Shown here: piece by piece, positions 1 through 39,674 of the stretch
Numbering within the stretch: position 1 is the first letter of the stretch
Layout: each line of letters starts with the position of its first letter
Source of the DNA: Prochlorococcus marinus str. MIT 9302
Lineage (GTDB): Bacteria; Cyanobacteriota; Cyanobacteriia; PCC-6307; Cyanobiaceae
Direction: 5' to 3'
Assembly: GCF_000759975.1 (NCBI RefSeq)
Contig: NZ_JNAM01000011.1
Span: forward strand, 124,001 to 188,000
Length of the DNA: 64,000 bases
Made by a program: the position numbers and the translations under genes
Notes under the pieces: generated by a model
What the model saw: only the letters and a program-made list of their open reading frames with translations
The model's database searches: none
Told to the model about the DNA's origin: nothing

Positions 1-449
1 TTGAATACCCTTCAAAAGAATGGGAGAAAGGGATGAGAGATTTAATAGAAAGAAGAGGTTTATTGCTTAAGACTGAATCTAGAGTAGGACTTAGTAGTGA
101 TTTTATCGCAGCGCATTTATTAGAAAAAAATATAAAAGTATACGAACAGATTCTAAATTTAGCAGAGGAATTAGACATCACGGATTCAAGATTTAATGAA
201 CAAAAACTAATTGAATTATTGGTGGAATCATCCAAAATCTCAAAAGCGACTAAGGTGAGAACTAGGCTAGTTGAAGAATTAGAGACTTCACTAAATAACG
301 CAGGTGCAATTTATACAAAACAATTAGGAGCAGGTGGCGGTGGATTTATTTTTTGTCTATTTGAAAAAGAGCCTAATGAAATTCCACCTAATCTCAAAAA
401 ATTAATGCTGAAGCCTAAGATATGTAGAGATGGATTGAGGATCCTATAA
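1..449 (+). CDS. hddA: GHMP-family sugar kinase, C-terminal part (likely D-glycero-alpha-D-manno-heptose-7-phosphate kinase, HddA)
   Basis: The reading frame is already open at base 3 and stops at 447-449, so the gene begins left of the window and only about 148 C-terminal residues are seen. The visible part carries the glycine-rich GHMP-kinase C-terminal signature (LGAGGGGF, around nt 325-350), which fits a heptose 1-kinase of the HddA type. Kinases of this family phosphorylate C1 of heptose 7-phosphate on the way to GDP-heptose. The next gene abuts without a gap and carries the two later steps of that pathway, which supports the assignment. Other GHMP sugar kinases cannot be excluded without the N-terminus. 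Confidence 0.72.
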   Translation, partial: EYPSKEWEKGMRDLIERRGLLLKTESRVGLSSDFIAAHLLEKNIKVYEQILNLAEELDITDSRFNEQKLIELLVESSKISKATKVRTRLVEELETSLNNAGAIYTKQLGAGGGGFIFCLFEKEPNEIPPNLKKLMLKPKICRDGLRIL

Positions 450-1706
450 GTGCTTAATACAGCATTATTGCCTGTTGGAGGTAAAGGGACAAGAATGAGG
501 GGATTTTCAAAAATCCCAAAATTACTTATTAAATTAAATGGCAAACCACTAATTGACTATACATTTGAAAAACTTGCGAAATATGGAATCAAACAGATAT
601 TTATAATTTCTAATGAAGGTAATAAAGAGATAGAAAATCACTGTTTGAAGGTATGCAGTAAATTGAATATAAAATTAAATGTATTGACTGAAGTTAAGTT
701 AAAGGGAAATTTTGGTGGAATTCTCGAAAATACAATAAATTTACCTGAAGAGTTTATTGTTGTTTATCCTGACTTGATATGGGATTGTAATCTGGAAAAA
801 ATTTATCATCAACATCTCAAATCTCAATCATTGGTAACTTTGGTAGTAAGAAGAACTGAGCATCCTGAAGATTCAGATACAGTGAAGCTGTGCCCTTTAT
901 TTAATGTAAAAACTTTATTTTCGAAAGTTACAAGATCTAAAAATATTACTTATGAAAAGAATGATCTTTTTGGAGCTACAGGAATCTACATTATGAATAA
1001 AAAATATCTTTTAAATTCGATGAATTTGAAATTTGATTCAGATGAAATTGACCTTTTTGAATCAATAGAGAAAAATCAAGAAAAATCAATAGTTAATATA
1101 TCTGGATACGTAACAAGTGAATATATTAGAGATTGTGGAACACCAGAAAGATTCAAAAAGGTTTCAAATGAGATAATTTCAAAAAAAATTTATTCCAGAA
1201 ATTATGAAAGAGCTCAAAAAATTCTTTTTTTAGATCGAGATGGGACTCTAATCAGAAATGATAAAAAGATCTATATAACATCCCCCGAAGAAGTTTTTTT
1301 AAATGAAGCGATTTTAGACATTTATAAAAAATATACCTCTGAAGGTTTTCTCCCAGTAGTGGTGACTAATCAACCTCAAATTGCTCATGGAAAATTAAGT
1401 TTGAACACCTTAGATAGAATTCACTGCAAAATTCAGGACTTATTAACAGCAAGAAACCTTGAAAAAATTTTTCAATTTCTCATTTGCCCACATCACCCCC
1501 ATGCTGGCTATAAAGAAGAGATTCCTTTCCTGAAATTTACTTGTGAATGCAGAAAACCTGAAATTGGGATGTTCAACTTCTTAGAGAAAAAATTCACAAT
1601 TGATCGTGATCAAAGTCTAATGATTGGCGATTCAAAAGCTGATGAAGGATTTGCAAATAATTGTGGGTTAAGATACTTAGACGTAAAAATTTTCAATAAT
1701 AAATGA
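450..1706 (+). CDS. hddC-gmhB: Fusion of heptose-1-phosphate guanylyltransferase (HddC-like) and heptose-1,7-bisphosphate phosphatase (GmhB-like)
   Basis: The protein has 418 aa in two domains. Residues 1 to about 240 are a nucleotidyltransferase with the early GGKGTRMR loop and a later PDLIWD segment. Residues about 258-418 are a HAD phosphatase with motif I FLDRDGTL, a GmhB-type zinc loop (CPHHPH followed by CEC, about residues 347-371) and the late MIGDSKAD acid motif. Established roles are removal of the 7-phosphate from heptose 1,7-bisphosphate and transfer of GMP to heptose 1-phosphate, so one protein would cover two steps to GDP-heptose. The GTG start follows the upstream stop directly, with a GAGG Shine-Dalgarno element about 8 nt before it. 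Exact sugar specificity is inferred. Confidence 0.82.
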   Translation: MLNTALLPVGGKGTRMRGFSKIPKLLIKLNGKPLIDYTFEKLAKYGIKQIFIISNEGNKEIENHCLKVCSKLNIKLNVLTEVKLKGNFGGILENTINLPEEFIVVYPDLIWDCNLEKIYHQHLKSQSLVTLVVRRTEHPEDSDTVKLCPLFNVKTLFSKVTRSKNITYEKNDLFGATGIYIMNKKYLLNSMNLKFDSDEIDLFESIEKNQEKSIVNISGYVTSEYIRDCGTPERFKKVSNEIISKKIYSRNYERAQKILFLDRDGTLIRNDKKIYITSPEEVFLNEAILDIYKKYTSEGFLPVVVTNQPQIAHGKLSLNTLDRIHCKIQDLLTARNLEKIFQFLICPHHPHAGYKEEIPFLKFTCECRKPEIGMFNFLEKKFTIDRDQSLMIGDSKADEGFANNCGLRYLDVKIFNNK

Positions 1707-4586: not shown

Positions 4587-5198
4587 TTGGAAAAAATCAA
4601 AACTAAAATAAAACCTATTCCTGGTTTCGCTAACTTTCAAGAAAAATTTAATACTGTTATAAACACAGAAACTTGGGAGAAATGCCAACTTGATTTTAAT
4701 TCTTCTAACAGAATACTTGCAGTTGGAAATGGAGGTAATTTAGCGGTTTGTGATCATGGTGCAATTGACATTGCAAGGTTAACAAATAAATCTGCTACTG
4801 CTCCTGGTAGTGGAATATTGGCAAGTAGTCTAATAAATGATGTTTCTCATAATGCATGGGTAAAAAATTGGCTATCAATTATGACTAGAGGTTTCGATCA
4901 ATCTCATCTTAATCAAACCATGCTTATAGGTGTTTCAAGCTCTGGTTACTCTAAGAATATTTGTCTTGCTCTAGATCATGCTCTGAGTTTAGGTTGTAAA
5001 GCGACACTTATTTCTGCCCAAAAACCTCATATTGAAGGGGAGTATAATACTGTCATTTTGGATGTAGACGAATACCATACAAGCGAAGTACTTACATTGA
5101 CATTGTTTTATCAATTAATTCACGGTGCAAATTTTACTTGTCCTACAATAACCGAGTCCGTTAAGAGAAATGTAATAGATGATTACACACGAGAATAA
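4587..5198 (+). CDS. gmhA: SIS-domain sugar isomerase, GmhA-like (sedoheptulose-7-phosphate isomerase)
   Basis: The protein has 203 aa. AVGNGGNLAVCDHGAIDIAR (about residues 45-64) matches the GmhA phosphate-binding GNGGSA-type motif, and a second SIS segment (GVSSSGYSKN, about 112) follows. GmhA turns sedoheptulose 7-phosphate into heptose 7-phosphate, the substrate of the kinase at the left edge, so the four-enzyme GDP-heptose route is nearly complete though split by a reverse-strand glycosyltransferase. The first in-frame ATG lies far inside the domain, so the TTG at 4587 is taken as start; no strong ribosome binding site precedes it. Another SIS sugar isomerase remains possible. Confidence 0.7.
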   Translation: MEKIKTKIKPIPGFANFQEKFNTVINTETWEKCQLDFNSSNRILAVGNGGNLAVCDHGAIDIARLTNKSATAPGSGILASSLINDVSHNAWVKNWLSIMTRGFDQSHLNQTMLIGVSSSGYSKNICLALDHALSLGCKATLISAQKPHIEGEYNTVILDVDEYHTSEVLTLTLFYQLIHGANFTCPTITESVKRNVIDDYTRE

Positions 5199-5871
5199 TA
5201 TTCAAAATTATTTAATTAAGTACAAAACAATTTTTTGGGATTTTGATGGAGTTATAAAAGATTCAGTTTTGATAAAGGGCGAAGCTTATAAAAAAACTTT
5301 TAAAAAATTTGGCTTTAATACAACAAATAAGATAATGATGCACCACTTAGATAATGGAGGAGTATCAAGGTTTAAAAAAATTCCATTATATTTAAGTTGG
5401 ACAGACGAGATAATTACTAAAGAGAAGATAAGTCTTTATTTAGAAGAATTTTCTAATAATTCGATAAATCTAGTAATAGATTGCAAACCCATTCCTGGAG
5501 CATTCGAAATGGTAAAATTTTTATCATTAAATTCACTTAATATTCTAGTAACTGCTACGCCTGAAAAAGATATTGATAAAATTTTAAACAAAATTTCTTT
5601 AAAAAATTATTTTCATAAAATATATGGAGCTGAAATGGATAAATATGCTGTGGTCAAAGAAGTATTGTCAAATTCATCAAATAAAATTAATGACTTTATT
5701 TTTATAGGAGATTCCGAAATTGATGTAAAAGCAGCAATTTCAAATAAGGTTCCCTTTTTATTGAAAGTTGGTAAGGATAATTTAGAATTAGCAAAAGATT
5801 ATAAATTACCTTTTATTAGAAATTTCAAATCAAATACTAAAGTTGACTTCTCCTTCACAGAAGTTGATTAA
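5179..5871 (+). CDS. HAD-superfamily phosphatase
   Basis: This 230-aa protein has all core HAD motifs: nucleophile DFDGV (Asp21, Asp23), a Thr motif II in the LVTATPEKD segment, and a late GDSEIDVKAA acid motif (about residues 177-186). The helical cap between them resembles phosphoglycolate-phosphatase and beta-phosphoglucomutase relatives. It overlaps the SIS gene by 20 nt and the PseG gene by 1 nt, so the three are probably co-translated. In this context it likely dephosphorylates a sugar phosphate, for instance of a heptose or nonulosonic acid. The substrate cannot be read from sequence. Confidence 0.7.
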   Translation: MITHENNIQNYLIKYKTIFWDFDGVIKDSVLIKGEAYKKTFKKFGFNTTNKIMMHHLDNGGVSRFKKIPLYLSWTDEIITKEKISLYLEEFSNNSINLVIDCKPIPGAFEMVKFLSLNSLNILVTATPEKDIDKILNKISLKNYFHKIYGAEMDKYAVVKEVLSNSSNKINDFIFIGDSEIDVKAAISNKVPFLLKVGKDNLELAKDYKLPFIRNFKSNTKVDFSFTEVD

Positions 5872-7409
5872 TGAATAGTTTGGTTTTCAGAGTTGATTCT
5901 TCAATAGAAATTGGTACTGGACATTTATATAGATGCCTTAATCTTGCAAGATCCTTCAGCTCATCAAATTTAAAGATTTTTTTTGTTTGCAGAAATCATA
6001 ATGGAAATCTTATTGATTTAATTAAAAATGAGTTCCAAGTTTTAACATTAGCAGAAAAGAAAATTAAAAAAAGTGAGGATTATCCATACTTGCACTGGTT
6101 AGGATGTAGTCAAATTGAAGATGCAAATGATACATTAAGAATATTGGAAGAAAACAATATCAATCCATCATTTTTGATTATTGATCACTACGGGATTGAC
6201 GAAGAATGGGAAAACTTTTTAATTAAAAAATACTCGAAACACAATGACTTTAAATTAGTAGTCATAGATGATTTATATAATCGTAATCATATTTGCGATT
6301 TATTATTAGATCAAAATATTATTGAAGAAAGTAACCCATATATATCAAAAACATCCCCCAGAACAAATTTTATATTTGGACCTTACTTTGCAATCCTTTC
6401 TAAAGAATATATTCACAAAAAAAATTTTATAAAAAACAAAAATTCTTTAAAAAGAGTTTTAATCTTTTTTAGCGGAGTAGATAAAAATAACCTTACTTTA
6501 AAATTAGCGAATTTATTATGTGACAAAAAATTTAAAAATCTTACTGTAGATATTGTTGTAGGTATTAAAAATAAAAAATTGAACGATATTAAAAAAATTT
6601 CAAAAGGAAGAAAGAATTTCAAACTTCATATACAAATTAAAACTTTAACTAATTTGATGCTTAAAGCAGATCTTGCCGTAGGAGGTGGAGGTATAAATTC
6701 TTGGGAAAGAGAATGTATGAAGTTGCCTACTTTATTAATTAGCTTGAGTCAACATCAAATTAATTTGTCTAATTCTTTAAAAAAATTTGGCAAAGTTAAT
6801 TACTTGGGACATTTTGATAAAGTAGATGAAAAAAAAATATCTTGCGAAATCCTGAATGAAGTAAAAAACTTTAGTTTAAATAAAAAAAAAGGAATATTCA
6901 TAGATGGATATGGAGCAAAAAGGATTGTTATTTTATTAAATGGATTGAACTTACCATTAAAATTTAGAAGAATAAGAGAATTTGATCATTCTCTTCTTAG
7001 ATTTTGGGTAGATAAGTTTACGAACATTAATTCTCTAGAACAAATTCTTCGCAAAAATGATGAAGAAAGATTTCTAGTAAATAATATTGATAATTGTCCT
7101 ATTTACTTCATAAGTTTTGACTCTGAATCAATTGTTAATTTAGAAATTAAAATATTATTTGACTCTTACTTAGTTAATGAAAATAATATTCAGCTCATTC
7201 TCAAAACTTCTCTACAAAAAGTAATTAGTAAAAAGATAAAATTTAAATTAATAAAAATTTCCATAATAAACAATTTATGCAAAAAGAAATTCAGAGAGCT
7301 AGATTTATTTTTTTCGAGACTTGATTTTATGACTTATGGTGAAAACACATTTTTAAATAAAAATTGCAACTATCTCCAATTAAAAAATCTTTTAAAGAGA
7401 ATTATTTAA
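5871..7409 (+). CDS. pseG: PseG-like UDP-sugar hydrolase with a C-terminal extension resembling a degenerate GNAT domain
   Basis: Residues 1 to about 350 match PseG, which removes UDP from UDP-2,4-diacetamido-2,4,6-trideoxy-beta-L-altrose in pseudaminic acid synthesis. The start has FRVDSSIEIGTGHLYRCL with the conserved His18, and the VGGGGINSWE loop lies near residue 270. Residues about 362-512 begin LKFRRIREFDHSLLRFW, like the start of the N-acetyltransferase PseH that is fused to PseG in some bacteria. The later part lacks a clear acetyl-CoA loop and looks diverged. Length is 512 aa, against roughly 270-350 for PseG alone. It follows the HAD gene with a 1-nt overlap. Confidence 0.72.
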   Translation: MNSLVFRVDSSIEIGTGHLYRCLNLARSFSSSNLKIFFVCRNHNGNLIDLIKNEFQVLTLAEKKIKKSEDYPYLHWLGCSQIEDANDTLRILEENNINPSFLIIDHYGIDEEWENFLIKKYSKHNDFKLVVIDDLYNRNHICDLLLDQNIIEESNPYISKTSPRTNFIFGPYFAILSKEYIHKKNFIKNKNSLKRVLIFFSGVDKNNLTLKLANLLCDKKFKNLTVDIVVGIKNKKLNDIKKISKGRKNFKLHIQIKTLTNLMLKADLAVGGGGINSWERECMKLPTLLISLSQHQINLSNSLKKFGKVNYLGHFDKVDEKKISCEILNEVKNFSLNKKKGIFIDGYGAKRIVILLNGLNLPLKFRRIREFDHSLLRFWVDKFTNINSLEQILRKNDEERFLVNNIDNCPIYFISFDSESIVNLEIKILFDSYLVNENNIQLILKTSLQKVISKKIKFKLIKISIINNLCKKKFRELDLFFSRLDFMTYGENTFLNKNCNYLQLKNLLKRII

Positions 7410-7435: not shown

Positions 7436-8134
7436 TTAGATATCTCCAGCTAAACGCATATTTAATAGTAATTCAGCTATTTTTAAATCTTCTTTTGTAT
7501 GAATATCAACGGCTGTTAAAAAATCATTATTTTCCAACACCTTAACATTATTTCCTATTCTTCTTCCCTCTCTCCATATGTGAGATCTAGAAACACAGCA
7601 TAAACCCGTATCTTCGCGGACAATGTATCTTCTTATTTGTCTTGATGAATAATTTGCCATCCAATCTTTCAGTCTTTCCCATTTACCATTTTCGTTTTTT
7701 TGCCAGAAATTTTTATGAGTTTTATGACCCGAAAAAACACTTTCTATTTTATTATCGTTAACCATTATTTCTATTGCTTCATCAATCCATTCAGGCTTTC
7801 TAAAAATGTCAGTACAAGTTAAAAACACGCATAAGTCTACTTTACTATGAAGTTTTTCATACTCTTCCAAAGCATGTTTCAATGTATCTTCAGTAGTTGC
7901 TAAATCACCAGAGATACTTTCTGGTCTCAAGAATGGGATATTAGCTCCATATTCTTTTGCTACTTCTGCTATTTCTTTATCATCTGTAGTAACTACAACA
8001 TCATTTACATATTTACTTCTTAATGCATGTTGTACAGGCCATGCTATTAATGGTTTTCCAGCTAATAGCTTCAAATTTTTTCTCTTTAGACCTTTGGATC
8101 CTCCTCTTGCAGGAATAAATGTGACAATTTTCAT
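7436..8134 (-). CDS. neuA: CMP-sugar (acylneuraminate-type) cytidylyltransferase
   Basis: The 232-aa protein starts with the CTP-binding loop FIPARGGSKG (residues 6-15). It continues with VVVTTDDKEI and PFLRPESISGD, all standard for CMP-nonulosonate synthetases, which join a 2-keto-3-deoxy sugar acid to CMP in the cytoplasm. The C-terminal metal segment reads AVDIHTKEDL, where relatives usually have DIDT-x-ED, so one of the two usual Asp residues is His. It is the last gene of a six-gene minus-strand operon, 14 nt after the AroE-like gene. Because that operon makes its own DAHP-like ulosonate, the substrate may not be sialic acid; legionaminate or another ulosonate is open. Confidence 0.82.
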   Translation of the reverse strand: MKIVTFIPARGGSKGLKRKNLKLLAGKPLIAWPVQHALRSKYVNDVVVTTDDKEIAEVAKEYGANIPFLRPESISGDLATTEDTLKHALEEYEKLHSKVDLCVFLTCTDIFRKPEWIDEAIEIMVNDNKIESVFSGHKTHKNFWQKNENGKWERLKDWMANYSSRQIRRYIVREDTGLCCVSRSHIWREGRRIGNNVKVLENNDFLTAVDIHTKEDLKIAELLLNMRLAGDI

Positions 8135-8148
8135 GATTTAAAAAATAT

Positions 8149-8997
8149 CTAAGATGACATCATTTCAACAATTTTATTTTCGCTATAACTTACATTACTA
8201 GCCAATTTGAATGCTCTAGCAGCCTGAAGCAAATTCATTTCTAATCCATTTGTAAATGAGATATTATTTTTTTCAGCTAGATTAAGAAGCTCAGTTTGTG
8301 AGGGGTCATAAACAATATCATAAATATACTTTAAATTTGAATTGGATAAATTTCTGATAGGAGATTTTTTTATTAATTCTCCTGTTCCAAAAGTTGTACA
8401 ATTGACAAAAGTATCAAAGTTAAGTAATTCTTTTTCTATATCTTGCCATGGGATCCAATTCGCATTAATACTTTTACAAAAAAGACTATTATTTTTCCTT
8501 GAACTACAGATTACTTGAGTATCTTTTGGGAGGAAGTGAGACGAGAAATAGGAAGCTACTGCCTTGCCAGCACCACCTAAACCACCAATCAAAATTGATT
8601 TTGGGAATACATCTTTTTCTTTTACTAAATTTAAGAAAGATTTTAAAGCCGCAAATCCATCAGTATTTGTTGCCCTCAAACGATTATCGTTTGATCTATA
8701 TAAACAATTCACTGCGCCAATAGGTTGAGAAACTTTATCAATCATTTCAAAATCTAGAATCTTAAATATTGTTTCTTTGTATGGAAAAGCAATACATCCA
8801 CCTATAAATGAGCTATCTTCTTCGAGATTTTTTATTGTTCTTTCAACTTCTTCTTCACTCCCTATGTCTATGCAAATCATTTTTGTTTTTTGATTGAGAA
8901 ATGAAAATGCTTTATTCCATAATTTAGGAGACCTTGCACCTTTGCTTGGGTTAAGTCCTATGATTGCTGCGTATTTTTTAGACAATTTTTTCTCCAA
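8149..8997 (-). CDS. Shikimate-dehydrogenase-like NAD(P)-dependent oxidoreductase (AroE paralogue)
   Basis: The protein has 282 aa with the AroE fold. Catalytic Lys74 lies in FPYKE, Asn97 in GAVN, Asp113 in NTDG, the dinucleotide loop GGLGGAGKA at about 138-146, and Gln258 in the C-terminal GLEMNLLQA helix. The substrate-binding start, normally an HSLSP-x-x-HN pattern, reads GARSPKLWN, so one Ser and the His are changed while catalytic residues remain. Housekeeping AroE reduces 3-dehydroshikimate. This copy overlaps a DAHP-synthase-like gene by 20 nt inside a polysaccharide operon, so it more likely reduces a related keto-acid for a surface sugar. No other shikimate-pathway gene is present. 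Confidence 0.72.
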   Translation of the reverse strand: MEKKLSKKYAAIIGLNPSKGARSPKLWNKAFSFLNQKTKMICIDIGSEEEVERTIKNLEEDSSFIGGCIAFPYKETIFKILDFEMIDKVSQPIGAVNCLYRSNDNRLRATNTDGFAALKSFLNLVKEKDVFPKSILIGGLGGAGKAVASYFSSHFLPKDTQVICSSRKNNSLFCKSINANWIPWQDIEKELLNFDTFVNCTTFGTGELIKKSPIRNLSNSNLKYIYDIVYDPSQTELLNLAEKNNISFTNGLEMNLLQAARAFKLASNVSYSENKIVEMMSS

Positions 8998-9880
8998 CTG
9001 TTTTTCTATTTACAATTTTACCAATCCGAGACAAATCATGAATTAGTTTTGAAAACTCTTCAAAATCAATGGATTGAAGAGGATCAACTGCTGCATTAGG
9101 TGGGTCTGGATGTACCTCTAACATGACTCCATCAGCACCTGCTGCAATAGAAGCCATAGCCATGGACCTTACCCATGGCCTCCAAAAAGTGGCATGAGAA
9201 GGATCTGTAACAACTGGGAGGTGTGTTATTTCTTTTGCAGCAGGAATTACTTGAAGATCAAGTAAGAACCTTGATGTTTCTCTATGAGTATGGGGAGCTA
9301 CAACTCCTCTTTCACATAAAATAACTTTAGTATTACCTTCTAACAGTATATATTCAGCAGCCCCCAACCAGTCTCTTAATGAGCATCCAAACCCTCTTTT
9401 AATCATTATTGGTTTACCACTTCTTGCACAGGCAGTTAATAATGGGTAATTTTGCATATTTCTTGTCCCTATTTGCAAAATATCAGCTGCTTCAGAAATG
9501 ATTGGGAGGAATTTTTCCTCCATTATCTCAGTTATTACTGGAATATCGTATTTATTTTTTGCCTTATAAAGCCATTCAATCCCTAATTCCCTTGTCTCAT
9601 TATATTTGTCGCTTCTGTATGGGAAAGTTAATGGTTTAAAAGCTCCACCTCTTAAAAAAGATGCTCCTTTGGACTTAAGATTTTTCGCACAATCATCTAT
9701 TAATTCTTCACTTTCTACCATATTTGGTCCCGCAAATATAGGAGCAGAATCAGGTCCAAATTTTATTCCAGCAATATCAAATTCAGAGAAGTGAAGCGGA
9801 TCCTTTTTAGCAGCTAAAGGGAATTTGGTTTTTATATCCTCTAGAGATACATCTTTACCTGGTGCTTTGTTTTCAATCAT
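8978..9880 (-). CDS. DAHP-synthase-family 3-deoxy-2-ulosonate synthase with Asn in place of the metal-binding Cys
   Basis: The 300-aa TIM-barrel protein resembles type I-beta DAHP synthases (AroF/AroG of Thermotoga or Bacillus type) along its length. RGGAFKP is at residues 77-83, IQIGTRNMQN near 136-145, KRGFG at 161-165, ILCERG at 187-192, the DPSH metal His at 229, EVHP Glu at 255 and a late Asp at 266. The first motif reads AGPNMVES, so residue 53 is Asn where metal-dependent enzymes carry Cys; Asn here is the hallmark of metal-independent KDO8P synthases. The reaction is condensation of phosphoenolpyruvate with an aldose phosphate. Product identity (DAHP or another 3-deoxy-2-ulosonate) is unresolved. 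It overlaps the dehydrogenase upstream by 4 nt. Confidence 0.75.
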   Translation of the reverse strand: MIENKAPGKDVSLEDIKTKFPLAAKKDPLHFSEFDIAGIKFGPDSAPIFAGPNMVESEELIDDCAKNLKSKGASFLRGGAFKPLTFPYRSDKYNETRELGIEWLYKAKNKYDIPVITEIMEEKFLPIISEAADILQIGTRNMQNYPLLTACARSGKPIMIKRGFGCSLRDWLGAAEYILLEGNTKVILCERGVVAPHTHRETSRFLLDLQVIPAAKEITHLPVVTDPSHATFWRPWVRSMAMASIAAGADGVMLEVHPDPPNAAVDPLQSIDFEEFSKLIHDLSRIGKIVNRKTVGEKIV

Positions 9881-10920
9881 TTTCCAAGCCTGATTGACTC
9901 ATTATTATTTACATCAACAAGCATACTTTTTTCAGTACTCCTGTATAGTGCATGTACAAGTTTTGTAGTGTTTAAGGTATCCAAAATATCTATTGAAAAT
10001 TTTTGATCAAGTATTAATGAGTCGATAAAGCTTTCTACCACTTTTTTATGACTATTCCCATAGCCTGTTGAGAAATCTTCAGAAGAATCTTTTATTAAGC
10101 TAATTACATCTTTGTCGACATCTTCTATGGAGTAATCAATTATCTCATTAATAGCAACTCCTCCAACCTTAACAAAACCTCTATCACCTGAAATAGTTAT
10201 TGACGCTTCATAATCTTTAGGTCTAAAAGCTGTAGTAGCTTCTATAGTACCTAAACTATCATTTTGATATTTAATACAAGCCATCATAGTGTCCTCTGCC
10301 TCTAGAATATTTATTAAATTGCTCTCCATGGAGAAAACCTGTTTTATTGGTCCATTTATCCATTGAAGAGCATCAATATGATGTATTGCCTGCTGATTAA
10401 TAACCCCTCCATCCATAACCCATTTACCATGCCAATCATCCGAGTAATAATTTTGATCACGACACCAATGTAATTTCATAGAGCAGATATTAATTTTACC
10501 TAAATGATTTTCATTTACTATTTGTTTAAGCGCTTTCATCGCTGAATTAAATCTATTTTGAAAGATAACTCCACACTTTAAATTCATTTCTTGTGATAAC
10601 TCAATTAAATGAAGATGTTCTTTTATGCTCATGCACGCTGGTTTTTCTGATAGAACATTAATATTGTTTTCGAGGCAAGTTTTTGAATGTTGAAAATGTA
10701 GTCCTGAAGGTGAGGCAACTATTACAAAATTAGGCTTTTGGCTAATTAGTTCTTCAATCTTTTCACAAGGTTTGCAATTTAATTTTTCAGAATATTTATG
10801 AAGTAATTTAATATTGCTATCACAAATAAATAGTTCATTTTGGTTTAAGAATTTTGTATCAAGAAAATTTTTCACATAATGATCAAAAACTCTTCCAAGA
10901 CCAATAATACCGATTTTCAT
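9877..10920 (-). CDS. Gfo/Idh/MocA-family NAD(P)-dependent sugar oxidoreductase
   Basis: The 347-aa protein opens with a Rossmann GIIGLGRV loop (residues 4-11). The family signature SEKPAC lies at about 91-96, and a predicted catalytic stretch GVINQQAIHHID (about 172-183) follows, with the QQ-x-HH-D arrangement typical of the family. Such enzymes oxidise or reduce a hydroxyl/keto group of a nucleotide sugar, sugar acid or cyclitol. It is third in the six-gene minus-strand operon. The start is 9 nt after the GT2 fusion gene and the stop overlaps the DAHP-synthase-like gene by 4 nt. A role in tailoring the operon's ulosonate or cyclitol is inferred. Confidence 0.78.
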   Translation of the reverse strand: MKIGIIGLGRVFDHYVKNFLDTKFLNQNELFICDSNIKLLHKYSEKLNCKPCEKIEELISQKPNFVIVASPSGLHFQHSKTCLENNINVLSEKPACMSIKEHLHLIELSQEMNLKCGVIFQNRFNSAMKALKQIVNENHLGKINICSMKLHWCRDQNYYSDDWHGKWVMDGGVINQQAIHHIDALQWINGPIKQVFSMESNLINILEAEDTMMACIKYQNDSLGTIEATTAFRPKDYEASITISGDRGFVKVGGVAINEIIDYSIEDVDKDVISLIKDSSEDFSTGYGNSHKKVVESFIDSLILDQKFSIDILDTLNTTKLVHALYRSTEKSMLVDVNNNESIRLGK

Positions 10921-10929
10921 AATAAAATT

Positions 10930-12312
10930 TTAAAGATTAATTGTTTTTCTAAAATGATTAATTACTCTTTCAAGCTCAGATTGGCTATGTATTGCAAGAA
11001 CTGCAATGGGATCTTTTATTACGTAGGCTTCTGTAACAGATGAAAAAAGTGACTTTTTCCTTATTTGAGAGGGTTTAACAAGTAATAAATAACCTGTTAA
11101 AGAAGTCAATACATTATCCTCATTTTTATTTTTTTTAATTACCCAAGAATTTCCTCCTAATACTTCCAATTCATCATTAGTACCATACCAAGTAATACGC
11201 TTTTCTTCCCAAGCCGCATAAATTGTGTCTGATTTACCTGACAACATGAGTTCAATCATGTTTTTGACGATTTCTTTATTCCTAAAAGGGTAAATCTCCT
11301 CAGCAACAGCGACAATATCATAAAATTCACCCTTATTTTCTAATTCTTCTAGGGTAAATTTAAGAACATCTGCCAATGAAGTATTAGATGTTGACAAACT
11401 ATCTGGCCTCATAAGAAATCTTACTCCAAGATCTTCTGCTTTTTTTGCAGTTTTTTCATTGTCTGTAGTAACAATAATTTCGTTTACCAAATTAGTAGAT
11501 TTAAGGGAATTAATTGTTTTTTCCAGCAAAGATATTTCCTGAAAACTTACTGTCTCTCCTTTTATAGGAATAATTGCTAAACAGGTTGTGAATTTTAAAT
11601 TTTTTGAATTATCTTCCTTTGGTTTTAGATTCGAAATTTTATCTAAAATTCTTGCGATATTTTTAGCTCTTGATCGATCCAATCCATGATTAACTCCATG
11701 CCAATGATAAACACATGCTTCAGAAACATATGCTATTTTATATCCACTTTTTATTATTTGTTCCCCCCAAATCCTATCCTCAATATTGGTAGATTCATCA
11801 CAGAAAGGAAATTCAAGCCAAGTTGACTTCAAAAAAGCACTATTAGCATTATGGAAGAAGGAATCAACACTTTGAATAAAACTTTCATTTCTAAAAAGCA
11901 TAACCAAATCCCTAACATCTAGAGGATCGCTATTCTCAGTAGGGACTTGTCGTCCATACGTACCAGCGATTTCTTTGTTAGATAAAGGTTTTATTAAATT
12001 GGTTAACCAATATTCATCAGTAGGTACACAATGTCCTGAAAGACAACAAATAATTTCTCCATTGGAATTTGAAATCCCATAATTTAACGCCAAACCAGGT
12101 AGGTATTTATCTATCTCTATAATTTTTACATCAAACTCTTTTGCTCTAGATAATGTTGTATCACTTGACTTATTATCAACAATAATCACTTCAATTCTTA
12201 CATCTTTTTGGGCAAAAACAGCTTGCAAACATTTTGTAATCCATTCCTCCTCATTTTTTGTTCTTATTATTATTGATATAAGTTTGTTCAATTTTTTAAT
12301 AAATTCTTTCAA
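10930..12312 (-). CDS. Fusion of a GT2 glycosyltransferase and a degenerate CMP-sugar synthetase-like domain
   Basis: The protein has 460 aa. Residues about 10-235 are a GT-A family 2 glycosyltransferase: IIRTKNEEEWI near residue 15, IIVDNKSSD near 44, and an IEDRIWGE segment where GT2 enzymes have their ED base motif. Residues about 243-460 follow the CMP-ulosonate synthetase fold (CLAIIPIKG, EIIVTTDNEKTA, FLMRP), but the CTP loop lacks the usual ARGGSK and the metal motif reads AVLAIHS instead of a D-x-D pattern. The second domain may therefore bind but not activate a sugar. It sits 30 nt after the methyltransferase gene in the operon. The acceptor is unknown. Confidence 0.7.
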   Translation of the reverse strand: MKEFIKKLNKLISIIIRTKNEEEWITKCLQAVFAQKDVRIEVIIVDNKSSDTTLSRAKEFDVKIIEIDKYLPGLALNYGISNSNGEIICCLSGHCVPTDEYWLTNLIKPLSNKEIAGTYGRQVPTENSDPLDVRDLVMLFRNESFIQSVDSFFHNANSAFLKSTWLEFPFCDESTNIEDRIWGEQIIKSGYKIAYVSEACVYHWHGVNHGLDRSRAKNIARILDKISNLKPKEDNSKNLKFTTCLAIIPIKGETVSFQEISLLEKTINSLKSTNLVNEIIVTTDNEKTAKKAEDLGVRFLMRPDSLSTSNTSLADVLKFTLEELENKGEFYDIVAVAEEIYPFRNKEIVKNMIELMLSGKSDTIYAAWEEKRITWYGTNDELEVLGGNSWVIKKNKNEDNVLTSLTGYLLLVKPSQIRKKSLFSSVTEAYVIKDPIAVLAIHSQSELERVINHFRKTINL

Positions 12313-12342
12313 ATTATAATTCTTTGATAAGGAATAGGAAAG

Positions 12343-12921
12343 TTACATTTTTTTTTCTAACTTAGAAATAACATAAAGAGACTGTTGAGGTAAAATTTTT
12401 CCAAAAAATTTTAAAGGTAAGGGTGTATAAAAAGTAACCAAAATAGAAAAGTTATACTTACTTAAAACTTTTTTAATTTTTTCTAAGTTATAAAACATTT
12501 TATGATCGGGATCCCTTTTATATCCGCTCTCACAAGGTACTCCGATGATCAATCTGCCTCCTATATTAAGGCACCTATTTATTTCTTTTAAAAGGATATC
12601 TGGTTCAATAATATGTTCTAGAACTTGATCAAGATTTATTGTTGAGAAAGAATCATCATCAACAGGAAATTTTCCATCTTTTATCAATTCAGCGTGCAAC
12701 CCCCTTGATCTACAATGATCAACATTAAATTTATTGATATCTAAACCTAAACTTCCTTTTGATCCAAAAAAGAGAAAATCTCCCAAACCACAGCCAACAT
12801 CAATAAAGTTGCCTTTTACAAACCTTGATAAAAGAGGGTAAAGAAAAAATTTTCTATATATTTTCCCTAATATTGAAGTTGTTTTAAGATATCTATAATA
12901 ATTTAAATAATTATCTTTCAT
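12343..12921 (-). CDS. Class I SAM-dependent methyltransferase
   Basis: The 192-aa protein has SAM motif I FIDVGCGLGDF (about residues 39-49), an acidic motif II in LGLDIN (about 57-62), and a post-motif NLDQVLEHI typical of the Methyltransf_11/23 group. The substrate is probably a sugar, lipid-linked glycan or sugar acid. It is the first gene of the six-gene minus-strand operon ending at 7436. The region upstream (12922-13064) is A/T-rich and separates it from a divergent glycosyltransferase, so the operon promoter probably lies there, though I see no clear -35/-10 pair. Confidence 0.75.
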   Translation of the reverse strand: MKDNYLNYYRYLKTTSILGKIYRKFFLYPLLSRFVKGNFIDVGCGLGDFLFFGSKGSLGLDINKFNVDHCRSRGLHAELIKDGKFPVDDDSFSTINLDQVLEHIIEPDILLKEINRCLNIGGRLIIGVPCESGYKRDPDHKMFYNLEKIKKVLSKYNFSILVTFYTPLPLKFFGKILPQQSLYVISKLEKKM

Positions 12922-22858: not shown

Positions 22859-25444
22859 ATGAAAAGATTTATTAATAATAGATTTAATTTAAAAGTGATA
22901 GTAATGTCTTTCATTACATTTTTAATAAAATCCCAGAAAAAATTATATAAACCAGCATTATTTATCTTTTATGTGCAAATTCTATTAGTATCTCTATTTT
23001 ATTTCCATAATAAAGGACATATTAATAAGAAACTAAAACCAGTTATCTACAACACTTTTGACAGCCTTTATATTCAAGATTACATTGGATATTTTAAAGA
23101 TCTTATTCTTTCATTTAATTTTAATAATAAAATTGAAAGAATTGATATACAGCTAGATTTTGAAAATATTGTTGGATTAGATTGTACAAGGAAGCAAGAA
23201 TTAGGCTGCAAAAACGATCCATGGCTAAAGGGTAATTTATTGGAAGGTGATATTAATTATCCAATAAAAATTAGATCAAAAGGCGATAGAAGACTTCATA
23301 GAGAAAGCTTTAAAAGTATGAGTTATAAAATTGATATCAGAGGGGAGCAAAGATATAAAGGTATGGAAGAGTTTTCAATACAGATGCCTATTATTAGAAA
23401 TTATACTTATGAATTATATGCATCAAATTTATTAAGAAAGGCAGGTATTATTTCTCCTAGGAATCATTATGTAAAGCTATTTTTAAATGGAGAATATCTT
23501 GGAATAAGACATGTTGAGGAAGGATTTGCGAGAGAATTAATTGAGTCAAATAAAAAACGTTTTGGACCAATTTTTAGTATCGACGAGGAATACGGAGATG
23601 TATATGAGAATACTATTTTTAAACCCTTAAATAAAAATTACTGGATAAATAATAATAGCAACCTTTTATCAGAGTCATTATCTGTTTTAGAGGCTTCTAG
23701 ATCTAATCCTGAGATTATAAAAACTCATTTTGACTTAGATAAATGGGCCAAATATTTTGCATATGTGGATTCTTTAAAACTCTTTCATGCGACAAGACCA
23801 GGAAATCTAAAATTTTATCTGAATCCCTCTTCTGGTAAATTTGAACCAATATTTTTTGATGGCCATTTAGGTATGGGTTATTTTGATAATTTCCACTTAT
23901 CAGATTATCTATTGATGGATGGTTCAAAACCAGATTGCAGATGGACATGTACTAATGAATATTTCTATAGATTATTCACAGGTACCCCTGAAAATCCTAA
24001 TTTAAAATTTTATGAATCTTATAAAGAATATCTAAAAGAAATTGTTTCTAAAGATAATAGAGGGAATCTAAAAAATGAATGGAATGAGCTTAGCAATGAG
24101 AGAAGAAGTATATACAGAGAATTTTCAGGAAAAGATTCAATGTGGAATAAAGGATTACTACCTCACATATCCGCATGGAAACCCTTAGAAAAACGATTAA
24201 TAGAAATAGAGAATTTGATATACGAATCCGAAACAAAAGAACCAAATTTTTCTTATGATTCCCAAAAAAATATTATATATATAAAAAATAATTATTCTCG
24301 TTTTCCTCAATTGATAGGCTTTAAATGTGGCAATTACAAAAGCGAGAAAAATATTTTAATAAAAGGCGGGATAACAAAATTTAAATTAGATAATTTTGGT
24401 AATTGTAATTTAAATCAACTCTTATATACTTTGGATAATTTCAAAAATACAAAAGAATTTAAGTCGTCAAATTTAACTAATTTCTCATTTGATAAAGAAT
24501 TGATAAATCCCATTAGAAATCTTCCAATAAAAAAGACATTTGAATTTATCTCTGGAGATCATAAGTTATCAAACTCAATAAATATTTTTAATAGCAATGT
24601 GATTTTCCATTCTGGAAGTTCTATTTGTTTAGAAAATGATTCTTATATCAATATAGAGAATTCAAATATTGATATAAGAGGCACAGAGAAAAATCCTGTC
24701 GAAATAAGTGCTTGCAATATAAAGAAAGAGTATGCAAATGGGGGCAGTTTAATTTTTCAAGATTCTAATATTAAAATATCGAACTTAAACCTAAATAATT
24801 TAAACGCTCCTAATAAAAGACTTCGGATATTATATGGAGGGGCAAATTTTATTAATTCAGAAATTAATATTGATAAATTAAGAATAGTCTCTTCAAATTC
24901 TGAAGATGCTATTAATTTTATAGATTCTAATTTAGAGGCTAATTATTTAGAGTTTATAAATTCTCAATCCGATGCTTTAGATTCTGACTTCTCAAATTTA
25001 AATATTAATAGAGTTAAATGCTCGAATGTTGGTAATGATTGTGTTGACTTTTCATTTTCTTTGGCAAAAATAAATCAAATCGAAAGTTATTTAACTGGTG
25101 ATAAGTCAATTAGTCTTGGTGAGGCATCAATATTAAAAGCGAAAAATGTAAACTTAAAAGATGGCGAAATAGGCATTGTAAGTAAAGACTATTCAAAATT
25201 AAATATTAAAAATTATGCGTTTTCAAATATAAGACTTCCAATAGCCTCTTTTGTTAAAAAACCAGAATTTCAATCACCTGAACTTTTTATAGAAAATATC
25301 AAGCCAAATTTGGGAAATAACTATTTAATTGGCAAAGATGTTAAGGCAATTATTTCTGGAAAGAAGCTTACTTCAGATTTACTTTCATCTGAAGTTGAAG
25401 ATAAACTTTACGGAAACTTTTACGGCACAAAAACTCAAAGATAA
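22859..25444 (+). CDS. CotH kinase family protein with C-terminal beta-helix-like repeats
   Basis: The protein has 861 aa. One membrane segment lies at about residues 33-50, so most of the chain is likely outside the cytoplasm. Residues about 95-440 form a CotH domain (IKIRSKGDRR, KSMSYKIDIRG, LFLNGEYLGIRHVEEGF, and FFDGHLGMG near 334). CotH proteins are atypical protein kinases known from Bacillus spore coats and are widespread in bacteria. Residues about 560-850 consist of short repeating strands rich in Asn, Ile and Ser (NIENSNIDI, FINSEINIDKL and similar), the pattern of a right-handed beta-helix. It overlaps the VTC gene by 1 nt. The target is unknown. Confidence 0.75.
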   Translation: MKRFINNRFNLKVIVMSFITFLIKSQKKLYKPALFIFYVQILLVSLFYFHNKGHINKKLKPVIYNTFDSLYIQDYIGYFKDLILSFNFNNKIERIDIQLDFENIVGLDCTRKQELGCKNDPWLKGNLLEGDINYPIKIRSKGDRRLHRESFKSMSYKIDIRGEQRYKGMEEFSIQMPIIRNYTYELYASNLLRKAGIISPRNHYVKLFLNGEYLGIRHVEEGFARELIESNKKRFGPIFSIDEEYGDVYENTIFKPLNKNYWINNNSNLLSESLSVLEASRSNPEIIKTHFDLDKWAKYFAYVDSLKLFHATRPGNLKFYLNPSSGKFEPIFFDGHLGMGYFDNFHLSDYLLMDGSKPDCRWTCTNEYFYRLFTGTPENPNLKFYESYKEYLKEIVSKDNRGNLKNEWNELSNERRSIYREFSGKDSMWNKGLLPHISAWKPLEKRLIEIENLIYESETKEPNFSYDSQKNIIYIKNNYSRFPQLIGFKCGNYKSEKNILIKGGITKFKLDNFGNCNLNQLLYTLDNFKNTKEFKSSNLTNFSFDKELINPIRNLPIKKTFEFISGDHKLSNSINIFNSNVIFHSGSSICLENDSYINIENSNIDIRGTEKNPVEISACNIKKEYANGGSLIFQDSNIKISNLNLNNLNAPNKRLRILYGGANFINSEINIDKLRIVSSNSEDAINFIDSNLEANYLEFINSQSDALDSDFSNLNINRVKCSNVGNDCVDFSFSLAKINQIESYLTGDKSISLGEASILKAKNVNLKDGEIGIVSKDYSKLNIKNYAFSNIRLPIASFVKKPEFQSPELFIENIKPNLGNNYLIGKDVKAIISGKKLTSDLLSSEVEDKLYGNFYGTKTQR

Positions 25445-33883: not shown

Positions 33884-34561
33884 ATGAAGCCTATATGTCT
33901 TATTCCTGCAAGAGGTGGTTCAAAAAGAATCCCAAAAAAAAATATAAAGATATTTAATGGCAAACCTCTTATTCAGTGGTCAATTGATTGTGCTAAAAAT
34001 TCTAATTTATTTTCAAAAATTGTTGTAAGTACTGATAATTTAGAAATTGCAGAAATCGCAAAAAATTGCGGTGCAGAGATACCTTTTATTAGACCTTCAA
34101 AATTGTCAGATGACTTCACTAAAGACATTGAAGTAATCCAACACTACATTAATCATGAGATATCTATCAATAATGTTCCAGATACACTTTGTTATCTATA
34201 TCCAACTGCGCCATTCATAACAAAAGAAACTTTAAAAAAATGTTACTCTCTTCTTTTAGAAAAAAAAGCTGCTTGTTCTTTAACAATAACTTCATTCCCT
34301 TACCCTCCACAAAGAGCATTAAGGAAAAATGATGACTCAACATTAGATTTCTTTTGGAATGAATTCAAAGGTAAAAGATCTCAAGATTTATTAGAAACAT
34401 TCCATGATGCAGGTCAATGCTATTTCTACAATTTGCAAAAATTTCCTGATATATCAAATAGGGTTGGGCTTATTTTACCAAGAATTTTATGTCAAGACAT
34501 TGATACTCCTGAAGATTTTGAATTCGCAGAGACCTTATTTAAAGTTTTAGAGGAGAAATGA
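33884..34561 (+). CDS. pseF: Pseudaminic acid-type CMP transferase, PseF
   Basis: The protein has 225 aa. The CTP loop IPARGGSKRIPKKNI begins at residue 7, and VVSTDNLEIAE, PFIRPSKLSDDF and QDIDTPEDF (with both metal-binding Asp residues) follow. FPYPPQRAL near residue 135 and FHDAGQCYF near 167 are typical of PseF over other CMP-sugar synthetases. It joins CMP to pseudaminic acid. A clear AAGGA ribosome binding site precedes the ATG. It is divergent from pseB, so both could share the regulatory gap 33686-33883. Confidence 0.85.
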   Translation: MKPICLIPARGGSKRIPKKNIKIFNGKPLIQWSIDCAKNSNLFSKIVVSTDNLEIAEIAKNCGAEIPFIRPSKLSDDFTKDIEVIQHYINHEISINNVPDTLCYLYPTAPFITKETLKKCYSLLLEKKAACSLTITSFPYPPQRALRKNDDSTLDFFWNEFKGKRSQDLLETFHDAGQCYFYNLQKFPDISNRVGLILPRILCQDIDTPEDFEFAETLFKVLEEK

Positions 34562-36731: not shown

Positions 36732-37791
36732 TTGAGGATACCACCATCTGAGATAATTCAAAAAAAGGCTTAGCACCTCTGCCCCATGGAATATCTACTT
36801 TCTCGAAAGGAAGATCTAGGAGCATCATACAGGCCATTTCAATGAAGTTAATACCACTAATTTCAGAAACAGCCAAACTTCCACTCATTCTGGGATTCAC
36901 TTCTAATATCCAAGGTTTATTTTTTTCGTCGAGAATAATGTCATAATCAAATAAATTAGGCATCATTAACTTACTTTGAAGTTTAGAAGCCAACTCAATT
37001 ACTGATTCGTTTTTATCCAAATAACATCCTCTAAAGGGGGTAGTTCTAGGATGAAATCTTCTTCTTGGAACAATATAAAAGGGAGTTCCTTCTTTATTAG
37101 CTAATATATCTACATCATACATAGCCCCAGGTAACATCTTCATTACTATAAGTTCTTGAAAATCTTCATCTTTCGATGTGTTTAAAAAAGAATCTAAGTT
37201 AAATGAATCAAGCGAGATCTCTTTATTTAATTCATCCATCTTAAGATCCTTTTCTTTTATAATCCATACACCTCTACCACCTCTACTTACGGTAGGCTTT
37301 ACAACTAATTCATTTTCTGGATAACCAAGCTCAAATGCTGCATTTTTAAGGGCATCTTTAGAAGTAACCCTTTTATATTCTGGCAAGGGTATCTCAAGAT
37401 TAGCAAGATAATCATACATATCTCCCTTATTAACTAAAAAAGGCACCATTTCCGCTGGTGGACAAGAAACTTTAATTCCTTCATTTTCAAAAACATTTCT
37501 ATTAAGAGCGAAATTTAGCGATTCTTCATCAGACCAAGGAAAAATTACATCTATTTTTTCTTTTTTACATAAATTAAGCATATGATTAATATATTTTTCA
37601 TCATAACCTGAGGGGACTGTAAAAAATTTATCCGAAAATGAACGTCCTATTGCATCAGAATTTAAATCAGTTGAAATTGTATTAATTTTAATATTTTTGC
37701 TTTTTGAAATTGACCTTAACAAACTTGGAGCTAATTGGCCTCCAGAACAAGTTATTAAAATATTAATTGAATTGATTGTGTTTACTTTCAT
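36724..37791 (-). CDS. ATP-grasp carboxylate-amine ligase-like protein
   Basis: The 355-aa protein has an N-terminal Rossmann-like domain (ILITCSGGQLAPSL) and a carbamoyl-phosphate-synthase-like ATP-grasp domain. VVKPTVSRGGRGVW carries the ATP lysine, and the C-terminal WILEVNPRMSGS carries the metal-binding Glu and Asn. ATP-grasp enzymes join a carboxylate to an amine, thiol or similar through an acyl phosphate. It overlaps NeuB by 4 nt (ATGA) and the dehydrogenase by 8 nt. A plausible job is to couple the carboxylate of a nonulosonic or related acid to an amine, but no substrate can be read from sequence. Confidence 0.75.
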   Translation of the reverse strand: MKVNTINSINILITCSGGQLAPSLLRSISKSKNIKINTISTDLNSDAIGRSFSDKFFTVPSGYDEKYINHMLNLCKKEKIDVIFPWSDEESLNFALNRNVFENEGIKVSCPPAEMVPFLVNKGDMYDYLANLEIPLPEYKRVTSKDALKNAAFELGYPENELVVKPTVSRGGRGVWIIKEKDLKMDELNKEISLDSFNLDSFLNTSKDEDFQELIVMKMLPGAMYDVDILANKEGTPFYIVPRRRFHPRTTPFRGCYLDKNESVIELASKLQSKLMMPNLFDYDIILDEKNKPWILEVNPRMSGSLAVSEISGINFIEMACMMLLDLPFEKVDIPWGRGAKPFFELSQMVVSSSE

Positions 37792-38933: not shown

Positions 38934-39674
38934 ATGAACAATATATGTATTATCCCTGCAAGAATGGGGAGTTCTAGATTTCCAGGAAAACCGTTATTTA
39001 AAATAAATGGTAAAGAATTAGTCAAACATGTCTACGATAATTGTATAAAATCAACTATTTTTCAAAAAGTTGTAATAGCTACTCCAGATAAAGAAATTAT
39101 TGATTTCTGTAATCATATAAATGCAGACTCAATTCTTACATCAAACGAACATAAAAGAGCATCAGATAGATGTCATGAAGCAATTCTAAATCTAGAAAAA
39201 CAAAGATCTTTTTATAATATTTGTACTATGGTTCAAGGTGACGAGCCAATGGTTAAACATAATGTAATTGATAAAATTACATATTCTTTAATTAAAGATA
39301 AGAATATACTTTGCGCTAATGGTTATGGACAAATTAGGGAGGAGGAACTAACCAACAAAAATTGTATAAAGGTATTAAAAGATAAAAATAGTAATGCAAT
39401 ATACATGTCCAGGAGTCCAATCCCCTGGGAACCAATAGTTAATAAAAATGTAGGTAAACAAATTTGTGTCATACCATTCCAAACTCATTTCCTAAAAACT
39501 TATAGTAATTTAGAGCCAACTCCCCTTGAAATTAATGAATCTATAGATATGTTAAGGGTGATTGAGAATGGTAAAGATGTCAAAATGGTTTCAGTAGATG
39601 GATATTTTCATCCGGTAGACATTCTTGGGGATGTAAAAGTAGTTGAAAATCTAATACAAAATAACTCTAATTAA
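38934..39674 (+). CDS. kdsB: KdsB-like CMP-3-deoxy-ulosonate cytidylyltransferase
   Basis: The 246-aa protein matches CMP-Kdo synthetase: IPARMGSSRFPGKPL (residues 7-21), VVIATPDKEI, ASDRCHEA and VQGDEPMV near residue 100, with YMSRSPIPW before the C-terminal part. KdsB activates Kdo for transfer. No Kdo-8-phosphate synthase, phosphatase or WaaA transferase gene is seen in the window, so the activated sugar may be Kdo made elsewhere or another 3-deoxy acid. It is divergent from neuB and overlaps the converging aldolase by 8 nt. Confidence 0.82.
   Translation: MNNICIIPARMGSSRFPGKPLFKINGKELVKHVYDNCIKSTIFQKVVIATPDKEIIDFCNHINADSILTSNEHKRASDRCHEAILNLEKQRSFYNICTMVQGDEPMVKHNVIDKITYSLIKDKNILCANGYGQIREEELTNKNCIKVLKDKNSNAIYMSRSPIPWEPIVNKNVGKQICVIPFQTHFLKTYSNLEPTPLEINESIDMLRVIENGKDVKMVSVDGYFHPVDILGDVKVVENLIQNNSN

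Follow-up and report, generated by a model that had tools for sequence, protein, structure and literature searches.

A recurrent five-gene cassette in Prochlorococcus, SAR11 and other bacteria, with a divergent DAHP-synthase-like enzyme and a putative role in making a CMP-activated surface sugar

A stretch of 64,000 nucleotides from the genome of Prochlorococcus marinus str. MIT 9302 (contig NZ_JNAM01000011.1, positions 124,001 to 188,000; hereafter the window) contains a run of six open reading frames (ORFs), all on the minus strand and together spanning window positions 7436 to 12921. They code for an S-adenosylmethionine (SAM)-dependent methyltransferase, a family 2 glycosyltransferase (GT2) fusion protein, a Gfo/Idh dehydrogenase, a protein resembling 3-deoxy-D-arabino-heptulosonate 7-phosphate (DAHP) synthase, an AroE-like dehydrogenase, and a NeuA-like cytidine monophosphate (CMP)-sugar synthetase (Table 1). 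Five of these genes recur together in distant genomes, and the product of the cassette looks like a putative acidic, CMP-activated surface sugar. A preliminary description of this DNA, made from the sequence alone, had read all six genes as one operon and proposed a self-contained route to an unusual CMP-activated ulosonate or a shikimate-like decoration. The ORF coordinates confirm the arrangement on one strand, with a gap of 30, a gap of 9, an overlap of 4, an overlap of 20, and a gap of 14 nt along the run (the 20-nt overlap presupposes that the AroE-like gene starts at TTG), and domain searches agree with the gene names. According to domain searches the run is surrounded by glycosyltransferase, PseG, HAD, and SIS genes, and its G+C content is 31.2% as compared to 26.1% and 25.6% in the flanks. 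A scan for promoters and terminators was uninformative (30 promoter-like sites versus 34.5 expected, no terminators versus 2.0 expected). The host genome (1.75 Mb in 17 contigs) encodes the housekeeping DAHP synthase, AroE, and AroB elsewhere; PF00793 matches two of its proteins only, the DAHP synthase just named and the synthase of the cassette.

Table 1. Features of the six-gene run in the window, with the evidence for each.
Feature	Window position	Strand	Evidence
SAM-dependent methyltransferase, first gene of the run, outside the conserved cassette	12343..12921	-	domain search; singleton cluster
GT2 glycosyltransferase fused to a CMP-sugar-synthetase-fold domain	10930..12312	-	domain search, structure comparison
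C-terminal CMP-NeuAc-synthetase-like domain, residues 242-455, degenerate nucleotide loop	10948..11589	-	structure match 6ifd
Gfo/Idh/MocA dehydrogenase	9877..10920	-	domain search; closest solved relatives 3q2k, 3q2i
DAHP-synthase-like phosphoenolpyruvate (PEP) aldol synthase, neofunctionalised type I-beta lineage	8978..9880	-	profiles, tree, residues, fold
Asn53 codon, in place of the metal-ligand Cys	9722..9724	-	alignment
KPLTFPYR loop, residues 82-89, in place of KPRTSPY; Arg binding erythrose 4-phosphate (E4P) lost	9614..9637	-	alignment
His197-Thr-His199	9284..9292	-	alignment; loop with low model confidence
AroE-like dehydrogenase; Lys74, Asn97, Asp113 kept, Ser14 equivalent is Ala21	8149..8997	-	profiles, alignment
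Putative CMP-ulosonate synthetase, NeuA-like, subfamily with HKNFW and SRQxR	7436..8134	-	profiles, motifs

The conserved unit comprises five genes, coding for the CMP-sugar synthetase, the GT2 fusion, a WlbA-like Gfo/Idh dehydrogenase, the DAHP-synthase-like enzyme, and the AroE-like protein. The proposed six-gene unit stands for these five only, because the methyltransferase forms a singleton cluster: at the threshold applied in clustering, none of the other cassettes has a relative of it nearby. A scan of 84,980 species genomes with two peptide patterns yielded 40 loci, 39 of them at 67-75% identity. The hosts are Prochlorococcus, many Pelagibacteraceae including strain HTCC9565, SAR324, Rhodospirillaceae, Roseibium, Denitromonas, Marinomonas, a Thiotrichaceae metagenome-assembled genome (MAG), and others. 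The set of 41 loci analysed below consists of these 39, the window, and G554, a copy from another genus of the phylum. It leaves out a KDO8P (3-deoxy-D-manno-octulosonate 8-phosphate) synthase with 26% identity (L098), two loci that share contigs with members of the set (L027 and L028, with L061 and L062, respectively), and the copies of G574 (61%) and G596 (73%), which were found later. The AroE-like gene accompanies the synthase in 38 of the 41 loci, Gfo/Idh in 37, NeuA in 35 (or 36, depending on the threshold), and the GT2 fusion in 32. This association goes beyond chance, since the synthase keeps the same partners in as many as 38 of the 41 loci, which come from several phyla. The order of the genes varies. 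NeuA-GT2-Gfo-DAHPS-AroE with gaps below 400 bp is realised in 16 of the 41 loci (L088 shares it and falls outside this count since an overlap filter removed its AroE), SAR11 has a second arrangement, Gfo-AroE-DAHPS, and in the window NeuA is last instead of first. The five genes lie together in three loci, L080, L087, and L092, from Marinomonas and Roseibium, with few other recognised sugar genes adjoining among the part of the neighbours scanned, which fits a self-sufficient cassette. Absent partners often coincide with contig ends.

Within the genus the cassette is rare. Close synthase copies were found in three of 200 genomes including that of the host, the other two being 72% identical, and the AroE-like protein is present in the same three. 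Another 20 matches in the genus have 23-30% identity to the synthase, and all eight of them that were scanned pass a KDO8P synthase cut-off. A search of 386 genomes of the phylum added one close copy, that of G554 (72%); the matches listed after it are ordinary type I-beta enzymes at 41-49% identity. Eight cassette genomes were examined for further copies: all eight have another PF00793 match, which may be a KDO8P synthase, and seven have another AroE match, G625 having one only. Some loci carry additional genes. A 641-residue protein without Pfam or NCBIfam match adjoins the cassette in L080 (11738-13663) and has relatives at L088 and L096. A radical SAM/SPASM protein (L063, 7714-8631) belongs to a cluster with members in 13 loci, in seven of which the gene lies immediately behind that of the synthase, and in L069 an aminotransferase follows (11803-12708). 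The radical SAM protein and the aminotransferase possibly modify the sugar further.

By profile, sequence, and fold, the synthase belongs to the type I-beta lineage of DAHP synthases. It scores 177 bits with PF00793 (DAHP synthase I) and passes TIGR01361 (275.9 versus a cut-off of 267.75 bits), misses the subfamily model NF006421 (305.3 versus 335), and stays far under the KDO8P synthase cut-off (TIGR01362, 94.8 versus 314). Its AlphaFold model is a TIM barrel (predicted template modelling score 0.84) that matches 1vr6 with a Z-score of 35.8. Identity in structural alignments is 36-42% to the type I-beta enzymes of Thermotoga, Aeropyrum, and Pyrococcus, whereas it is 20-26% to metal-independent KDO8P synthase (KdsA), which belongs to another clade. 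In the tree, the 41 synthases form one clade (support 100/98) on a long branch, apart from six KDO8P synthases, whose identity was confirmed by profile, and from 28 type I-beta DAHP synthases that served as controls and are the same-phylum enzymes most like the query rather than a random sample. The preliminary description had named as contrary to its proposal that the two proteins group with the housekeeping copies and that the genome has no other copies. The outcome is the opposite: other copies exist in the genome, no significant alignment links the cassette synthase to its housekeeping counterpart, and the AroE-like protein shares 24% identity with the housekeeping AroE.

The active site of the synthase combines conserved and altered elements. 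As described in PMC6362186, DAHP synthases bind the metal through C36, H206, E232, and D243, PEP through R60, K65, R120, K141, and R171, also S119, and E4P through R67, T68, and D243, and all DAHP synthases reported by 2019 are metalloenzymes. The PEP residues (R77, K82, R140, K161, R191) are invariant in the 41 cassette and 28 control sequences, and the metal ligands His229, Glu255, and Asp266 are kept. The metal-ligand Cys, present in 28/28 controls, is replaced by Asn53 in 41/41 cassette synthases, and the S-D-G-P loop of ordinary enzymes at the metal Asp reads V-D-P-L. The E4P-binding Arg of the KPRT motif (28/28 controls) has become Leu84 in all 41, and the nearby Ser has become Phe86 (41/41 versus 0/28). 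The same set carries His197-Thr-His199 (41/41 versus 0/28), where the controls lack residue 197 and mostly have Asp at 199, and its active-site loops have gained Arg89 (41/41) and Arg97 (40/41). The figure for Asn53 is not an independent count, because one scan pattern contains this residue, all 41 synthases match that pattern, and 39 of them were fetched by the scan. Whole-protein searches supplied independent copies (that of the host and those of G071, G144, G554, G596, and G574), and 6/6 have the Asn, the Leu, the Phe, and His-Thr-His, G574 even though it lies outside the scan pattern. Because these copies agree, the selection on Asn53 leaves the odds of the pathway proposed below unchanged. 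In KDO8P synthases, Asn in place of the metal Cys is needed for metal independence and is accompanied by changes in the metal-Asp loop (PMC3052366). Since the cassette enzyme has the same replacement, it is probably metal-independent. Two further synthase genes deserve mention. The copy of G574 (L111) has Asn, KPLTFPYR, and His-Thr-His at 61% identity, but AGP has changed to GGP and a Gfo/Idh gene adjoins on the other strand, so that a second synthase subfamily is possible. In L058, a truncated second DAHPS-like copy of 172 aa (8378-8896), the second gene downstream of the intact one, is 43% identical to the window enzyme over 183 columns.

These residues also bear on the acceptor. Loss of the E4P Arg suggests that the synthase does not use erythrose 4-phosphate, and the phosphorylated acceptors that had been suggested, erythrose 4-phosphate most of all, are disfavoured by the Leu found in every cassette copy examined. 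Arg89 and Arg97 could accommodate an acceptor with a different negative group, for example a uronate, or a re-posed phosphate. In the latter case the logic of the route would be the same, but a phosphorylated aldose would be held in a new pose and a HAD phosphatase would hydrolyse the phospho-ulosonate before CMP activation, as for Kdo, the product of the KdsA route that is likewise CMP-activated. The four new basic residues (the two Arg and the two His) would suit this variant, and a HAD hydrolase is encoded nearby, at window positions 5179-5871. However, that gene lies on the opposite strand beyond PseG, no HAD family occurs among the neighbour clusters in the part of the neighbours scanned, and the E4P Arg and Ser are Leu and Phe throughout, all of which makes a phosphorylated acceptor unlikely. 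The five conserved genes include no phosphatase either, unlike the Kdo route and as in sialic-acid-type routes.

The AroE-like protein has a recognisable shikimate dehydrogenase N-domain (PF08501, 36.8 bits) and remains far under the AroE equivalog cut-off (TIGR00507, 115 versus 200.2 bits). K74, N97, and D113 are present in 38/38 cassette copies, and D113 presumably corresponds to the active-site Asp of AroE. The equivalent of Ser16 is likewise kept in all 38, and that of Ser14 is Ala21 in all 38. In AroE, a Lys is catalytic, an Asn belongs to the site, and Ser14 and Ser16 bind the carboxylate of shikimate (PMC2789096). A chain named 5-ketofructose reductase (7cok) belongs to the same family as the AroE-like protein (E 5.5e-6). 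In L093 (990-6800) an open frame of more than 1,900 residues begins with the AroE-like domain, and its remainder has no other Pfam match. The family names, and the narrow pass of TIGR01361 by 8 bits, could still be taken to mean that synthase and AroE-like protein are divergent but ordinary shikimate-pathway enzymes, such as aromatic or quinate isoenzymes. This is very improbable in view of the housekeeping copies, the absence of the metal Cys and the E4P Arg from every cassette copy examined, the AroE score, and the recurrent linkage to NeuA and glycosyltransferase genes. Ordinary aromatic synthesis, which the preliminary description had also considered unlikely, was rejected on the grounds of the housekeeping copies, the residue losses, and the linkage. 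For a shikimate-like decoration, its other suggestion, nothing was found in favour: a search with a single AroB query gave no AroB-like gene in any of the 41 loci, which amount to 745 kb with the entire window. Heptulosaric acid (Dha) was considered as the product and dropped, as nothing spoke in its favour; the literature matches listed were mainly papers on plants.

Among solved structures, 3q2k and 3q2i are the closest relatives of the Gfo/Idh protein (172 bits with 3q2k versus 68.6 with the next family) and have the W.R.Q.YY, W.G.W, DGG, and H motifs in common with it. We take these two structures to be the B. pertussis and C. violaceum forms of WlbA, the UDP-N-acetylglucosaminuronic acid (UDP-GlcNAcA) 3-dehydrogenase. 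The cassette differs from the WlbA/WbpB pathway in that neither an aminotransferase (WbpE) nor an acetyltransferase (WbpD) is among the five conserved genes. The role of WbpB/WlbA in that pathway has been described (PMC10622841).

The cassette NeuA matches CTP_transf_3 with 89 bits and has the PARGGSKG-type nucleotide loop, but it stays under the cut-off of every NCBIfam model matched (PseF 137.7 versus 205.7 bits; KdsB models 36-64 versus 155-281 bits). Its 11 best matches, at 52-59% identity, are all in cassette loci (SAR11, Marinomonas, Prochlorococcus, and a Rhodospirillaceae MAG), and the protein represents a separate subfamily. Five loci, SAR11-type or alphaproteobacterial, have a NeuA frame of about 580 residues with a methyltransferase-like C-terminus; the one scanned of these five, in L065, contains NeuA and O-methyltransferase domains. 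The window also encodes a PseF and a KdsB-type synthetase, which pass their own cut-offs, so the other sugars of the island have their own activators. This matters for the possibility that the synthase and the AroE-like protein have a separate product of their own, such as a cyclitol or an aminoshikimate-like moiety, and that the sole role of NeuA is to activate what a NeuB makes, for instance the one encoded at position 37788. A NeuB is indeed present in the window, and Gfo/Idh-type, DAHP synthase, and AroE homologues also co-occur in the aminoshikimate, or 3-amino-5-hydroxybenzoate (AHBA), pathway, where RifH is the DAHP synthase homologue, RifI the AroE homologue, and RifL the oxidoreductase. 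The cassette has the same combination, yet the one AroB query gave no AroB-like gene in the 41 loci, and a CMP-sugar synthetase and a glycosyltransferase are present instead. With NeuA beside the synthase and no member of NeuB cluster c10 found in L080, L087, and L092, and with PseF and the KdsB-like synthetase serving other products, we regard a separate compound as improbable.

In the GT2 fusion, the C-terminal domain matches 6ifd, which has the CMP-NeuAc synthetase fold (Z 25.3, root-mean-square deviation 2.9, 200 residues, 20% identity). It lacks the PARGGSKG-type loop, for which the window sequence reads IPIKGE, and has presumably lost synthetase activity.

Taken together, these data support the self-contained route to a CMP-activated ulosonate that had been proposed from the sequence, as the gene set recurs across distant genomes. 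With a probability of roughly two in three, the cassette is a dedicated route to one unusual CMP-activated 3-deoxy-2-ulosonate of the cell surface. The following scheme, in which the order of the steps and every substrate are presumed, would account for its genes. The WlbA-like dehydrogenase may first act on a sugar, perhaps a (nucleotide-bound) uronate, and oxidise one of its hydroxyls, by analogy the one at C3. The synthase would then condense PEP with an aldose other than erythrose 4-phosphate, probably not phosphorylated and probably without metal, and the AroE-like protein would reduce a ketone of the product or of a precursor with NADPH, so that the two dehydrogenases together could reset a stereocentre. 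The cassette NeuA, whose family is clear from its profile, would couple the ulosonate to CMP. Finally, the GT2 fusion would transfer the ulosonate, and its C-terminal domain may hold the donor or dock the synthetase.

Several observations weigh against this scheme. To our knowledge GT2 enzymes use UDP-, GDP-, or dTDP-sugars, not CMP-sugars. Some cassettes are incomplete although flanking DNA is present and no contig end intervenes: L074 lacks NeuA, L081 and L070 lack GT2, L079 has no Gfo, GT2, or NeuA in 7.7 kb upstream, and L095 has neither a full GT2 nor NeuA in 6.4 kb upstream. Relatives of the GT2 fusion (36-40% identity) occur without the synthase in five of 200 genomes of the genus. The NeuA proteins of four Prochlorococcus-type cassettes (L058, L060, L061, L062) lack the HKxFW and SRQxR motifs and are 28-31% identical to that of the window in the three compared. 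Relatives with the metal Cys could be missed by the scan pattern containing Asn53, and the controls were selected for likeness to the query. Arg89, Arg97, and the two His could bind phosphate in another pose, and the specificity loops 84-89 and 195-204 have predicted local distance difference test (pLDDT) values below 50, so no pocket can be read from the model. In addition, Gfo, GT2, and AroE are all absent from the flanks of 2.4 and 3.9 kb in L085.

With type I-beta DAHP synthases the cassette synthase shares the fold, the PEP-binding residues, and the His, Glu, and Asp of the metal site, and it differs in the replaced and added residues, the changed S-D-G-P loop, and its own clade. With KdsA it shares Asn for the metal Cys and changes in the metal-Asp loop. 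The NeuB, PseI, and LegI pathways offer a parallel in the PEP aldol step with NeuA-type activation straight after, and in the non-phosphorylated acceptor proposed here for the cassette. However, the cassette synthase is under the cut-off of PF03102 (20.1 versus 22.1 bits) and has no SAF domain match in its 300 aa, and its partners are the Gfo/Idh and AroE-like dehydrogenases. The matches listed from the open-licence literature contain no recognisable description of the cassette or its product, and a paper on SAR11 O-chains (PMC11898729) and one on phosphonates (PMC8931226) contain none of the terms looked for in them. This suggests a previously unrecognised variant of CMP-ulosonate pathways. 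We suggest more tentatively, at somewhat less than even odds, that the cassette contains a further kind of PEP-dependent ulosonate synthase beside the DAHP, KDO8P, and NeuB types, namely a metal-independent member of the DAHP lineage acting on a non-phosphorylated, possibly keto- or uronate-type aldose, and that it makes an undescribed CMP-ulosonate by oxidation, condensation, and reduction, in a pathway shared horizontally among abundant ocean bacteria.

The surface ocean is dominated by Prochlorococcus and SAR11. Their surface glycans vary, consist of mostly uncharacterised sugars, and are believed to be important in evading phages and grazers. Being portable and clearly recognisable, the cassette points to one surface-sugar pathway and can serve as its marker. 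Among its hosts are named strains or isolates suitable for a search for the product, namely Pelagibacter HTCC9565, Marinomonas ostreistagni USM7, Roseibium MMSF_3544, and Denitromonas IR-12. The synthase is also a natural test case for how a DAHP synthase could lose its dependence on a metal, a transition that we know only among KDO8P synthases.

In the synthase tree, Prochlorococcus copies appear in more than one place among those of SAR11 (L059 and L075 branch apart from the group of the window), with several deep forks unresolved. This scatter and the patchy presence in the genus (3/200) fit sharing of the cassette by horizontal transfer. Phages and plasmids were considered as carriers and rejected: two pattern scans of viral contigs gave no match, and the 16 phage and 112 plasmid records that match the synthase are all below 60% identity, the 15 listed of each being at 45% or less.

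The remainder of the island contains genes for other sugars. PseG (5871-7409; 245 versus a cut-off of 153.55 bits) and PseF (33884-34561; 261 versus 205.7 bits), 26 kb apart in the same island, probably form a pseudaminic acid route separate from the cassette. The KdsB-type synthetase gene (38934-39674) scores 225.7 bits versus the cut-off of 193 of a KdsB-type subfamily; despite its presence, the two PF00793 matches of the genome include no KDO8P synthase. It adjoins the NeuB gene (37788-38813), whose product scores under the NeuB and PseI cut-offs. At the start of the window (1-1706), a GHMP-kinase C-terminus is followed by a nucleotidyltransferase fused to a HAD/PNK3P-type phosphatase, genes that presumably resemble the GDP-heptose pathway (HddA, HddC, and GmhB types). 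A CotH-kinase domain protein of 861 aa is encoded at 22859-25444.

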